From NCBI GenBank assembly GCA_002685435.1, contig NYXD01000082.1:1-5928 (forward strand): a DNA stretch of 5,928 nucleotides, given 5' to 3'. Both the position numbers and the translations under genes were made by a program. Positions 1 through 5,928 of this stretch are shown here, in pieces (position 1 is the stretch's first letter; every line of letters starts with the position of its first letter). Origin of the DNA: Cryomorphaceae bacterium. Lineage in GTDB: Bacteria; Bacteroidota; Bacteroidia; Flavobacteriales; Schleiferiaceae. The notes below the pieces were generated by a model, which saw only the letters and a program-made list of their open reading frames with translations, ran no database searches and was not told the origin of the DNA.

Positions 1-522
1 ATTTTTGCGCAAGCAATCATGTTCATCCCAATCACTGTGCTACAGTACAGCGGAGCTGAAGGCGATAGTGTAAGCTGGTTAATTACGGTATTTGGAAATA
101 TTCAAGGCTTGTGGTACAATGTAGCTTTCGCCGTATTGATCATTGTCTTCACCTATTTCTATACCGCGATTCAAGTAAATACAAATTCTATCGCAGATGA
201 TTTGAAGCGTAATGGAGGATTTGTTCCAGGGATTAAGCCGGGTGCGCCAACTGCTGAATTTCTAGATACTGTCTTAAGTAGAATAACGTTCCCAGGTTCG
301 TTATTGCTCGCTTTAGTTGCAATCTTACCAGCAGTTGCAATGACTGTAGGCTTGAATACGCAATGGGCCTACTTCTATGGAGGTACTTCATTGCTCATTA
401 CAGTTGGTGTTATTCTAGATACATTACAGCAGATCGAAAGCTATTTGTTAAATAGACATTACGATGGTTTAATGAAGACTGGAAAGTTGAGAGGTAGAAA
501 CACACAAAGCACGTTTAGTTAA
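1..522 (+). CDS. secY: Protein translocase subunit SecY, C-terminal part (5' end outside window)
   Basis: SecY is the pore-forming subunit of the SecYEG channel, which moves unfolded proteins across, and membrane proteins into, the inner membrane. The frame is open from base 1 (first residues [10 protein letters not shown], the family's TM7 region) and gives 173 residues before TAA; the N-terminal half and more is missing. Visible in order are a hydrophobic TM8 near partial residues 38-59 ending in YFYTAIQVN, the cytosolic C5 loop with the signature FVPGIKPG at about 74-81, TM9 near 97-114, and TM10 near 124-145 starting [10 protein letters not shown]. The C5 loop is where SecA and ribosomes dock in studied homologues. 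The position just before infA with no adk or map between fits Flavobacteriales. An internal ATG at base 19 is not the start, because family sequence continues upstream of it. Identification is very secure. Confidence 0.98.
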
Positions 523-523
523 T

Positions 524-739
524 ATGGCGAAGCAAAGCGCAATAGAGCAAGACGGAACGGTAACAGAAGCATTGTCTAATGCAATGTTTCGTGTGGAGTT
601 GGAGAATGGTCACGTTGTGACAGCGCATATTTCAGGTAAAATGAGAATGCACTACATCAAACTACTACCGGGTGATAAAGTAAAACTAGAAATGAGCCCA
701 TACGATTTGTCAAAGGCTCGTATAACGTACAGATACTAG
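524..739 (+). CDS. infA: Translation initiation factor IF-1
   Basis: IF-1 is a small OB-fold (S1-like) protein that binds the 30S A site during initiation and cooperates with IF-2 and IF-3. The 71-residue product has the usual length and covers the whole family: [11 protein letters not shown] at the start, the core [20 protein letters not shown] at residues 23-42, then the [16 protein letters not shown] strand region and a basic aromatic end RITYRY. The start is fixed by the universal N-terminus; its ATG lies one base after the secY TAA, so translational coupling is likely, and there is no Shine-Dalgarno sequence. The gene ends in TAG exactly where the family ends. This matters for interpreting the TAG inside rpsD, since TAG evidently serves as a real stop here. 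rpmJ follows after 4 bases. Confidence 0.98.
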
Positions 740-743
740 AGAA

Positions 744-860
744 ATGAAAGTAAGAGCATCAGTAAAAAAGCGTAGCGTGGACTGTAAGATTGTTCGCCGT
801 AAAGGACGCTTATATGTAATTAACAAGAAGAACCCCAAGTTCAAGCAACGTCAGGGTTAA
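744..860 (+). CDS. rpmJ: 50S ribosomal protein L36, zinc-ligand-poor form
   Basis: L36 is the smallest large-subunit ribosomal protein and packs against 23S rRNA. The ATG at 744 opens a 38-codon frame ending in TAA: it begins [10 protein letters not shown], has the basic centre [11 protein letters not shown] and ends KFKQRQG, the hallmark L36 C-terminus. The zinc-binding form of L36 has a Cys-Cys-Cys-His set; here only Cys14 remains. The positions corresponding to the other three ligands are Ser11, Asn27 and Phe33, so zinc is unlikely to be bound. The 38-residue length, one longer than in E. coli, and this loss are both known in Bacteroidota. It sits between infA (4-base gap) and rpsM (22-base gap). 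Confidence 0.97.
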
Positions 861-882: not shown

Positions 883-1260
883 ATGGCAAGGATTGCAGGT
901 GTAGACTTACCCAGAACCAAACGTGGTGTTATTGGCCTGACTTATATCTACGGAGTTGGCTTAAGCCGCTCTCAAGAGATTTTGGACAAGGCAGGTGTAA
1001 GTGAAGATGTAAAAGTTCAGGATTGGACGGACGAGCAGTTAACAGCTATTCGTGGCGTAATTTCTGACGAGTACAGAGTAGAAGGTGAATTGCGTTCAGA
1101 GGTTCAGTTGAACATCAAGCGTATGATGGACATAGGTTGTAACCGTGGTATCCGTCACCGTTTGGGACTTCCACTACGCGGACAGCGTACGAAGAACAAT
1201 TCACGTACTAGAAAGGGTAAGAGAAAAACGGTTGCTAACAAGAAGAAAGCGACTAAATAA
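883..1260 (+). CDS. rpsM: 30S ribosomal protein S13
   Basis: S13 sits in the head of the small subunit, binds 16S rRNA, and contacts the P-site tRNA and the 50S subunit through intersubunit bridges. The 125-residue product begins [10 protein letters not shown] and has the helix-two-turn-helix region [14 protein letters not shown] at about residues 22-35. Its signature [16 protein letters not shown] at about 88-103 is followed by the basic tail [17 protein letters not shown] that reaches towards the tRNA. Length and start match the family. Residue 87, within GCNRG, is Asn where homologues I know have Tyr. The gene ends TAA immediately followed by in-frame TAG. The 22-base purine-rich leader (CCAATAATAGAAGAAAAAGA) is too short for the pseudoknot through which S4 represses this gene in E. 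coli. Confidence 0.98.
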
Positions 1261-1269
1261 TAGTTAGTT

Positions 1270-1662
1270 ATGGCTAAGAAACAGACTAAACAGACAAAGA
1301 AGCGTAAAGTGCGTATCGACGCTGTCGGTGAAGCGCACATTGGATCTTCTTTTAACAACATCATTATCTCGTTGACGAACAATCAAGGGCAAGTAATCTC
1401 TTGGTCGTCTGCCGGTAAGATGGGCTTCCGTGGTTCAAAAAAGAACACTCCTTACGCTGCTCAGATGGCAGCAGAAGATTGTGGTCGTGTAGCATTGGAA
1501 GCAGGACTTAAAAAAGTGAAGGCTTACGTCAAAGGTCCAGGTAATGGACGTGAGAGTGCGATTCGTTCGCTCCACAACTTAGGAATAGAGGTTATCGAAA
1601 TCATCGATATCACTCCAACTCCTCACAACGGTTGTCGTGCACCTAAGAAACGTCGCGTTTAA
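1270..1662 (+). CDS. rpsK: 30S ribosomal protein S11
   Basis: S11 lines the small-subunit platform near the mRNA exit channel, next to S7 and S18. The product is 130 residues. After a short lysine-rich N-terminal extension ([17 protein letters not shown]) come [17 protein letters not shown], the [20 protein letters not shown] block at about residues 49-68, [15 protein letters not shown] at about 88-102, and the conserved C-terminal signature [16 protein letters not shown]. The usual Pro in the CRPPK end is Ala here, a minor change. The start ATG lies 9 bases after rpsM and no alternative fits better. The gene ends with two in-frame TAA codons (1660-1665). The order rpsM-rpsK-rpsD-rpoA-rplQ is the conserved bacterial alpha operon. 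Confidence 0.98.
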
Positions 1663-1683: not shown

Positions 1684-2289
1684 ATGGCAAGATATAGAGG
1701 ACCAAAAACAAAGATCGCTCGCCGTATGGGTGAGCCAATCTTTGGCCCAGATAGCTCTTTCGAAAAGCGTAAGTACCCTCCAGGTCAGCACGGGAATACC
1801 CGTCGTCGCGGTAAGAAAAGCGAATATTCAGTATAGTTGCAAGAAAAGCAAAAAGCGAAATACACCTACGGTATATTAGAGCGTCAGTTTGCTCGTATGT
1901 TTAACAAAGCTTCACGTAGTAAAGGCAAAACAGGTGATGTATTGCTTCAACTTTGTGAGGGTCGCTTAGACAACGTTGTATTCCGTTTAGGATTAGGTAA
2001 AACTCGCGATGGCGCCCGTCAGCTCGTAGGTCACCGTCACATTACAGTGAACGGTCAGATCGTTAACATTCCATCAATGAATGTTACTCCAGGCGATGTA
2101 ATTGGAGTTCGTGAGAAGTCTAAATCTTTGGTAGTAATTGCTGAAGCATTAGCTAGCCGTGGAACTGAGTACCCATGGTTGGAATGGAATGAAAGTAAAA
2201 TGGAAGGTACCTTCTTAAGTGTACCTTCACGCGATGCAATCCCTGAGAATATCAAGGAGCAACTCATCGTCGAATTGTACTCTAAATAA
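1684..2289 (+). CDS. rpsD: 30S ribosomal protein S4, interrupted by in-frame TAG at codon 51
   Basis: S4 is a primary 16S rRNA-binding protein that nucleates assembly of the 30S body; it helps form the mRNA entry site and influences decoding accuracy. From ATG 1684 the frame reads [20 protein letters not shown], continues through YPPGQHGN and [10 protein letters not shown], meets TAG at 1834-1836, and resumes with [20 protein letters not shown] to the family C-terminus [16 protein letters not shown]. Read through, it has exactly the usual 201 residues. The S4 RNA-binding domain is at about residues 94-157 ([29 protein letters not shown]). No Cys occurs in the first 50 residues, so this is the zinc-free type. 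Homologues carry Gln at codon 51, so CAG to TAG is the simplest change. Taken literally, the DNA yields a 50-residue fragment, or a 150-residue protein from TTG 1837 lacking the N-terminal rRNA-binding part. Sequence error, suppression, or a second gene copy are open explanations. The gene ends TAATAA. Confidence 0.93.
1834..1836 (+). other. In-frame amber codon inside rpsD
   Basis: TAG stands at codon 51 of rpsD between GTA (Val50) and TTG (Leu52), with no frame shift on either side. The expected residue is Gln, as in the family motif VQL followed by EKQK. A single C-to-T transition converts CAG into this TAG. No Shine-Dalgarno sequence precedes the following TTG, so restart there is not supported by sequence. 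Confidence 0.97.
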
Positions 2290-2311: not shown

Positions 2312-3304
2312 ATGGCTATCCTTAATTTCCAGAAGCCCGAAAAAGTAATAATGAACGCTTCCACTGACTTCAGTGGTCAGTTCGAGTTTAGACCTTTGGA
2401 GCCTGGTTACGGTCTTACCGTCGGTAATGCACTGCGCAGAGTTTTACTTTCCGGTCTTGAAGGTTTTGCCTTGACTTCATTGAGAATTGAAGGTGTTGAC
2501 CACGAGTTCACAACCATTCAAGGTGTTGTTGAAGATGTCACTGAGATCGTTCTCAATTTGAAACAAGTACGTTTCAAGCAACAGATAGAAGCTCAGGATA
2601 CTGAAACAGTGAAGTTCACAATCAGCGGTAAAGAACAGTTAGTTGCTGGCGATTTCGCATCGCATATCAGTGCTTTCCAAGTATTAAACCCAGATCACGT
2701 TATCTGTAACATGGATCCAAGCGTTAGCTTGACTATGGAAATGGTAATTGAGAAAGGGCGCGGATATGTTGGAGCTGAAATGAACAAGAAAGCAGATGCT
2801 CCAATAGGAACAATTGCTTTAGACAGCATTTACACACCGATCAAGAACGTTAAGTATTCAGTGGAAAACTACCGTGTTGAGCAAAAGACCGATTACGAAA
2901 AATTGGTTTTTGAGATCGATACAGACGGTTCAATTCATCCAAAAGATGCACTGACAGAAGCGGCGAAAATTCTAATTCACCACTTCATGTTGTTCAGTGA
3001 TGAGCGCATCAGTTTAGAAGATGAAGAGTCTTCAGAGACTGAGAGCTACGATGAAGAAGCATTGCACATGCGTCAGTTGCTAAAAACAAAACTTCATGAT
3101 ATGGACTTGAGTGTCCGTGCTTTGAACTGTTTGAAGGCAGCAGAGGTAGATACATTGGGTGATTTAGTGACATTCTCTAAATCTGATTTAATGAAATTCC
3201 GCAACTTCGGTAAGAAGTCTCTTACTGAACTAGAGGAGTTAGTTGAAAGTAAAAACTTGAGCTTCGGGATGGATATCTCAAAATATAAGCTCGATAAAGA
3301 ATAA
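2312..3304 (+). CDS. rpoA: DNA-directed RNA polymerase subunit alpha
   Basis: The alpha subunit dimerises to seed RNA polymerase assembly, and its C-terminal domain contacts UP-element DNA and transcription activators. The product is 330 residues. The N-terminal domain (about 1-230) contains [20 protein letters not shown] and later GRGYV and [19 protein letters not shown], the family's dimer and beta/beta' contact regions. An acidic linker ([16 protein letters not shown]) follows near 235-250. The C-terminal helix-hairpin-helix domain carries [12 protein letters not shown], with Arg269, Asn272 and Lys275 matching E. coli DNA-contact residues 265, 268 and 271, and then [14 protein letters not shown] chose ATG 2312 because [14 protein letters not shown] is the usual Bacteroidota N-terminus. 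The open frame extends up to 2219, but that longer form would overlap rpsD with unrelated residues. The 22-base gap after rpsD has no Shine-Dalgarno sequence. Confidence 0.98.
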
Positions 3305-3306
3305 GC

Positions 3307-3810
3307 ATGAGACACGGTAAGAAATTTAACCACCTCGGTAGAAAAACTGCGCACAGAAAAGCGATGTTAAGTAACATGGCGGGTTCATTAATTGAGCACA
3401 AACGTGTAATGACAACAGTGCAAAAAGCAAAAGCTTTGCGCAAGGTAATTGAGCCTTTAGTAACTCGTTCAAAAGAGAATACTACGCACAATCGTCGTAT
3501 TGCTTTTGCAGTATTGCGTCAGAAAGAAGTGGTAACTGAATTATTCAATGTAGTGGGTCCTAAGGTCGGTGATCGTCCAGGTGGATATACTCGTATCATC
3601 AAAACAGGAAACCGCCAAGGTGATAATGCAGAGATGTGTATGATTGAATTAGTAGACTTCAATGACATGTACGGGAAAGACGAGAAGAAGAAGACTACTC
3701 GTCGTAGCCGTCGTGCGAAAACTGAAACTGCGCCTGTAGTTGAGGAAGCGGCACCAGTAGCTGAAGCACCTGCAGCAGTAGAAGAATCAAAAGAAGAATC
3801 TGCTGAATAA
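3307..3810 (+). CDS. rplQ: 50S ribosomal protein L17 with acidic C-terminal extension
   Basis: L17 is a large-subunit protein near the polypeptide exit tunnel. The core (about residues 1-118) starts [20 protein letters not shown], contains [20 protein letters not shown], and ends with the [13 protein letters not shown] and [10 protein letters not shown] blocks. At 167 residues it is about 40 longer than E. coli L17. The extra tail from about residue 124 is first basic ([12 protein letters not shown]) and then rich in Ala, Glu, Pro and Val up to the end (EESAE), so it is probably disordered. Tails of this kind are usual in Bacteroidota L17. ATG 3307 lies two bases after the rpoA stop, implying coupled translation. 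This is the last gene of the ribosomal block; the terminator at 3854-3892 follows. Confidence 0.98.

Positions 3811-3906: not shown

Positions 3907-5928
<2,022 letters not shown>

Follow-up and report, generated by a model that had tools for sequence, protein, structure and literature searches.

The locus described here raises the question of whether an in-frame TAG codon inside rpsD, the gene for ribosomal protein uS4, reflects recoding biology or no more than a fault or rare variant in the assembled sequence. The window (the whole stretch of 5,928 nucleotides that was analyzed) is, we infer, a piece of a metagenome-type contig. It begins within secY and stops within eno, and its genes lie in the operon order secY-infA-rpmJ-rpsM-rpsK-rpsD-rpoA-rplQ, followed by carA and eno, all on the plus strand. 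For secY, infA, rpmJ, rpsM, rpsK, rplQ, and carA, we presume the names from operon order and sequence. Neither a tRNA scan nor an Rfam search at gathering scores gave a match in the window. Its features are as follows.

1 to 522, plus strand: 3′ part of secY (open reading frame, matched in relatives; name presumed)
524 to 739, plus strand: infA, terminated by TAG (open reading frame, relatives; name presumed)
744 to 860, plus strand: rpmJ (relatives; name presumed)
883 to 1260, plus strand: rpsM (open reading frame, relatives; name presumed)
1270 to 1662, plus strand: rpsK (open reading frame, relatives; name presumed)
1684 to 1833, plus strand: rpsD codons 1 to 50, the N-terminal part of uS4 (PF00163 positions 1 to 52, NF003717 positions 1 to 48)
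1834 to 1836, plus strand: in-frame TAG, rpsD codon 51 (all 80 relative loci have Gln here)
1837 to 2289, plus strand: rpsD codons 52 to 201 plus TAA (PF00163 positions 56 to 95, PF01479, and NF003717 positions 52 to 202 above its cut-off)
2312 to 3304, plus strand: rpoA (NCBIfam NF003516, 445.2 bits versus a cut-off of 353)
3307 to 3810, plus strand: rplQ (open reading frame, relatives; name presumed)
3907 to 5007, plus strand: carA, terminated by TAG (open reading frame, relatives; name presumed)
5048 to 5926, plus strand: 5′ part of eno (NCBIfam TIGR01060, 466 bits versus a cut-off of 300)

Codon 51 of rpsD reads TAG at positions 1834 to 1836, in frame with the ATG at 1684 and the TAA at 2287 to 2289, exactly where an earlier note, made from the sequence alone, had placed it within a full-length S4 frame. 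The frame is therefore not the uninterrupted one of a uS4 gene, whereas the domain content is that of uS4, with a Ribosomal_S4 N-domain followed by an S4 RNA-binding domain in about 200 residues. Residues 1 to 50 match positions 1 to 52 of Pfam PF00163, the Ribosomal_S4 N-domain (E 2.9e-9), and residues 52 to 201 match its positions 56 to 95 and then the S4 domain PF01479 (E 1.8e-18). NCBIfam model NF003717 is matched at positions 1 to 48 by the first half and at positions 52 to 202 by the second, and since these matches are consecutive, they leave a gap of no more than a few model positions. The second half alone scores above both bacterial NCBIfam cut-offs (215.1 versus 116; 183.1 versus 177.2) and the first half alone below both (46 and 42.3 bits). 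Both halves thus match uS4 models, which bears out the earlier statement that family sequence runs up to and beyond codon 51. In length, frame, domain order, and operon position, the gene resembles bacterial uS4 (NF003717/TIGR01017, PF00163 plus PF01479); it differs in having TAG at codon 51, where all 80 relative loci have Gln. In an alignment to solved structures, residue 51 stands opposite Gln54 (Met1 counted) of the 206-residue chain 7unr_d. We take the corresponding Gln of enterobacterial S4 to be a site of ribosomal-ambiguity mutation, an assumption for which the open-access literature searched offered no support.

The relative set comprised 80 loci, kept out of at least 582 confirmed in one scan of species genomes. 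Codon 51 encodes Gln in every one of the 80 (CAG in 54, CAA in 26), and none of them has a stop within rpsD. Among the matches listed, the closest is that of Flavobacteriales bacterium UBA4585 (L001), with 93.8% DNA identity over the window, followed by those of a Cryomorphaceae bacterium (L003; 89.9%) and a Bacteroidetes bacterium (L002; 88.6% across 5,137 aligned columns). All three encode Val-Gln-Leu at codons 50 to 52, and each of their genomes (G001 to G003) holds a single rpsD, whole and free of internal stops. The TAG is not chance sequence, since the frame it interrupts has 98% protein identity to the UBA4585 locus. The letters TAG are real, but as a feature the TAG probably is not. 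The comparisons proposed in the earlier note accordingly gave an intact rpsD in close relatives, with Gln in 80 of 80 loci (of at least 582 confirmed), and one rpsD, with no second copy, in each of the three near-relative genomes; the substitution that it had proposed, CAG to TAG, fits the codons that the relatives use.

A wider sample of the class covered 395 genomes, 371 with an S4 match and 24 without, and internal stops were absent from the best 150 matches listed for those 371. Two S4 matches were seen in 6 of the 371 (G034, G063, G195, G211, G277, and G361); the second match in these six genomes may be an rpsD copy, another S4-domain protein, or contamination.

Apart from its stop, rpsD in the window looks normally constrained. 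Compared with the UBA4585 locus, 20 of its codons differ synonymously and 3 with a change of amino acid, and it has no indel, against 334 synonymous and 15 changing codon differences summed over the genes of the whole window. Its first 50 codons carry 5 synonymous and no changing differences relative to the same locus, no changing difference relative to L003, and 1 relative to L002. A decaying pseudogene was rejected on these grounds, as neither relaxed constraint nor a further lesion was seen relative to UBA4585, in agreement with the earlier view that the gene is not in decay. We also counted departures from the family at the 880 columns in which conservation reaches 95% of the sequences or more, leaving out the stop codon itself. 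The window departs at 0 of the 880, L001 at 1, L002 at 0, and L003 at 1, with a median of 4 and a maximum of 33 over the 80 loci; an error-rich window therefore found no support. Normal constraint together with the lack of departures at these columns suggests that rpsD was probably in use until very recently.

Codons 51 and 52 hold three base differences from the UBA4585 locus, at positions 1834, 1837, and 1839. Six-base spans with at least three differences number 20 in this comparison, counted with overlaps, and the span at codons 51 and 52 is the only one within positions 524 to 2289, the others being in secY, carA, and eno. As about 1.4 such spans would be expected in 524 to 2289 if differences fell independently, the cluster is unremarkable. 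Further, among the single substitutions that the coding sequence of the window allows, 17,037 in all, 769 (4.5%) create a stop, so that one nonsense call arising from one random error would be unremarkable if many windows were scanned.

Whether TAG could be decoded in this organism can be judged partly from the window itself. The TAG that ends infA is shared with L001 and L003 (the gene lies outside the L002 locus), and the TAG that ends carA is shared with L001, L002, and L003; in more distant relatives, the stops of these two genes are mostly TAA. TAG is hence an ordinary stop here. Release factor RF1 was matched in all three near-relative genomes, above the family cut-off in two of them, and in G002 it came as two pieces, one running from base 1 of its contig, which we infer to be one gene. 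Recoding of TAG was rejected because TAG terminates infA and carA in the window and in those near relatives whose loci cover the genes, and because RF1 is matched in all three near genomes.

ARAGORN was run on all 67 tRNA matches from the three near-relative draft genomes, and no CUA anticodon was found among them, in a catalogue that looks incomplete, as no tRNA-Ile was called in these drafts. Each genome has one tRNA-Gln, with anticodon UUG, and three weak matches (L140, L141, and L152) yielded no tRNA by ARAGORN. The missing CUA tRNA, for which the earlier note had proposed a search, is thus an absence in three near-relative drafts and short of proof; within that scope, a suppressor tRNA found no support. 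Folding of the RNA, expressed relative to shuffled sequences, gave z = +0.24 for the 100 bases 3′ of the TAG and −0.64 for positions 1784 to 1883; the same calculation in Gln-bearing relatives gave +0.55 and +0.17 for the 100 bases 3′ and +0.45 for the 100 bases around the codon in L001. No signal of a read-through-stimulating RNA structure was therefore seen in the 100 bases 3′ of or around the TAG. The codons that follow the TAG are TTG CAA, which differ from what we take to be the tobamovirus-type read-through motif, UAG CAR YYA. With a stop in none of the 80 loci (of at least 582 confirmed) and neither a stimulating context nor a stimulating structure, programmed read-through was rejected.

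Taking these observations together, we consider it very probable that the TAG is a one-base consensus error or a rare nonsense variant rather than recoding biology, and between these two we lean toward error. The consensus of the contig, an assembled and probably metagenomic one, would hold a single wrong base; alternatively, at most a rare nonsense allele, carried by few cells or by dead DNA molecules, may have been assembled by chance. In either case, the uS4 made by the living population would be normal, of full length and with Gln as residue 51. Mismatches do occur in assemblies of synthetic metagenomes, and the error profile differs by assembler (PMC5502489). The TAG resembles isolated nonsense errors and rare variants in metagenome consensus sequences in that one base is affected, the relative loci show no trace of it, and the gene is otherwise conserved; it is unlike isolated errors of this kind in that the remainder of the window has no further oddity. 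Two observations count against this reading of an error or rare variant: the conserved columns give no separate indication that the stretch is faulty, and one database protein, P0122, starts at codon 52, as contigs with the same TAG would cause it to do. The earlier note had also favored error, and the intact relatives, the lack of a CUA tRNA among the matches from three near drafts, and the single rpsD in near genomes support that preference, whereas suppression, read-through, and feedback through S4, which it had listed as options, find nothing in their favor beyond the ambiguous hint from the P0122 cluster.

That hint comes from a JGI source. P0122 has 150 residues, starts exactly at codon 52, and represents a cluster of 16 members with 2 contigs, the longest of 1,728 bases. 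It is identical to the window at 149 of its 150 residues and shares the window's Asn74, which is absent from L001 to L003. A second JGI product, P0123, also has 150 residues and a start at codon 52, with 85% identity to the window and a longest contig of 3,307 bases; it is too distant to belong to the same population and shows that a codon-52 start has been called elsewhere too. The first residue of both is written as Leu, and codon 52 of the window is TTG. This TTG, at 1837 directly 3′ of the TAG, is the first start-type codon following Met15, so that an interruption anywhere in codons 16 to 51, whether a break or the edge of a contig, could explain the P0122 start. If the P0122 contigs carried the same TAG, the allele would be real, or at least sampled more than once; as a sign of a real TAG allele, P0122 is thus ambiguous.

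Other S4 products of the clade in the databases vary in their ends as well. P0003, P0016, and P0018 (187 amino acids) start at Met15 rather than Met1. At codon 15, 10 of the 80 loci (L001 to L010) have ATG and the remaining 70 encode Phe, and residues 1 to 14 are well conserved, so that the Met15 starts look mis-called. P0160 runs out of frame past residue 67, into a frame that can be read at window position 1916, and P0218 ends at residue 67, by a stop or a contig end. These last two products suggest that assemblies of this clade break or err inside rpsD.

The P0122 cluster, near-identical to the window and drawn from two other JGI contigs, could derive from a TAG allele, and it is the main reason for weighing the idea that a real amber allele is common in the population and is tolerated because partial decoding of TAG, by a near-cognate tRNA-Gln, an unseen suppressor, or leaky termination, yields enough S4. 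Such an idea would agree with the conserved sequence on both sides of the TAG and with the Gln of the relatives, a residue that near-cognate reading of TAG could insert. It is nevertheless improbable in our judgment, given that infA and carA, both in the window and in those near relatives that cover them, terminate at a true TAG stop, that RF1 is matched in all three near genomes and a CUA anticodon in none of the 67 tRNA matches, and that no unusual structure lies at the stop. Further, the product of termination that it predicts, a 50-residue piece or a 36-residue form from Met15, is absent from 118 first-half matches, among which a 90% cluster could hide one. Its stronger form, in which a common allele shared with the P0122 contigs is decoded leakily and the supply of S4 is tuned by read-through, is more doubtful still.

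We consider it highly unlikely that the protein is instead made in a split form, with translation ending at the TAG and starting afresh from TTG 1837 or from codon 72, an ATG, to give an N-truncated S4 that would still assemble. The TTG directly 3′ of the TAG is suitably placed, and the piece from residue 52 to 201 nearly equals the S4 delta 41 fragment (PDB 1c05), which aligns to residues 44 to 201; the two nearly coincide in extent, although 1c05 is by name a truncated construct. S4 delta 41 presumably binds 16S RNA, which says nothing on growth. Set against this, the first 50 residues are as conserved as described above relative to the three nearest loci, and no split gene occurs in the 80 loci (of at least 582 confirmed), in the three near genomes, or among the best 150 class matches listed.

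An intact second rpsD elsewhere in the genome, which would make the operon copy a fresh pseudogene, has similarly little to recommend it. The 6 of 371 matched class genomes with two S4 matches give it some precedent, but the three nearest genomes are single copy, and the damaged copy would be the one in the conserved operon, which is the place expected of the main gene.

Phage-style recoding, in which TAG would be read as Gln (code 15) in a host gene much as crAss-like phages of Bacteroidota read it, has the least chance of all, and the TAG stops of infA and carA come near to refuting it; the TAG does stand at a Gln position, as code 15 would have it, but the window is a bacterial ribosomal operon and no phage, rpsD codon 51 is the sole in-gene TAG in it, it contains no tRNA, and the three relatives yielded no suppressor tRNA. 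A search of viral contigs with a degenerate DNA pattern allowing stop and Gln codons gave no match, and a protein search of viral contigs gave two stretches that fit the pattern, neither an S4 relative. For the phages themselves, recoding of TAG to Gln is backed by metaproteomics (PMC9523058).

A one-base consensus error or rare nonsense variant, then, is the reading that we carry forward. A search of the open-access literature (titles and abstract openings) found no report of an amber codon occurring naturally in rpsD. Were the stop real, it would mean that a single-copy essential ribosomal gene depends on stop-codon read-through, of which natural examples are rare, with feedback through the role of S4 in decoding accuracy, a role on which rpsD ambiguity mutants bear (PMC12713390). 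As it is, the locus counsels caution: when a highly conserved gene on a short assembled piece shows a lone nonsense codon, the reads should be consulted before any biological reading is placed on it.
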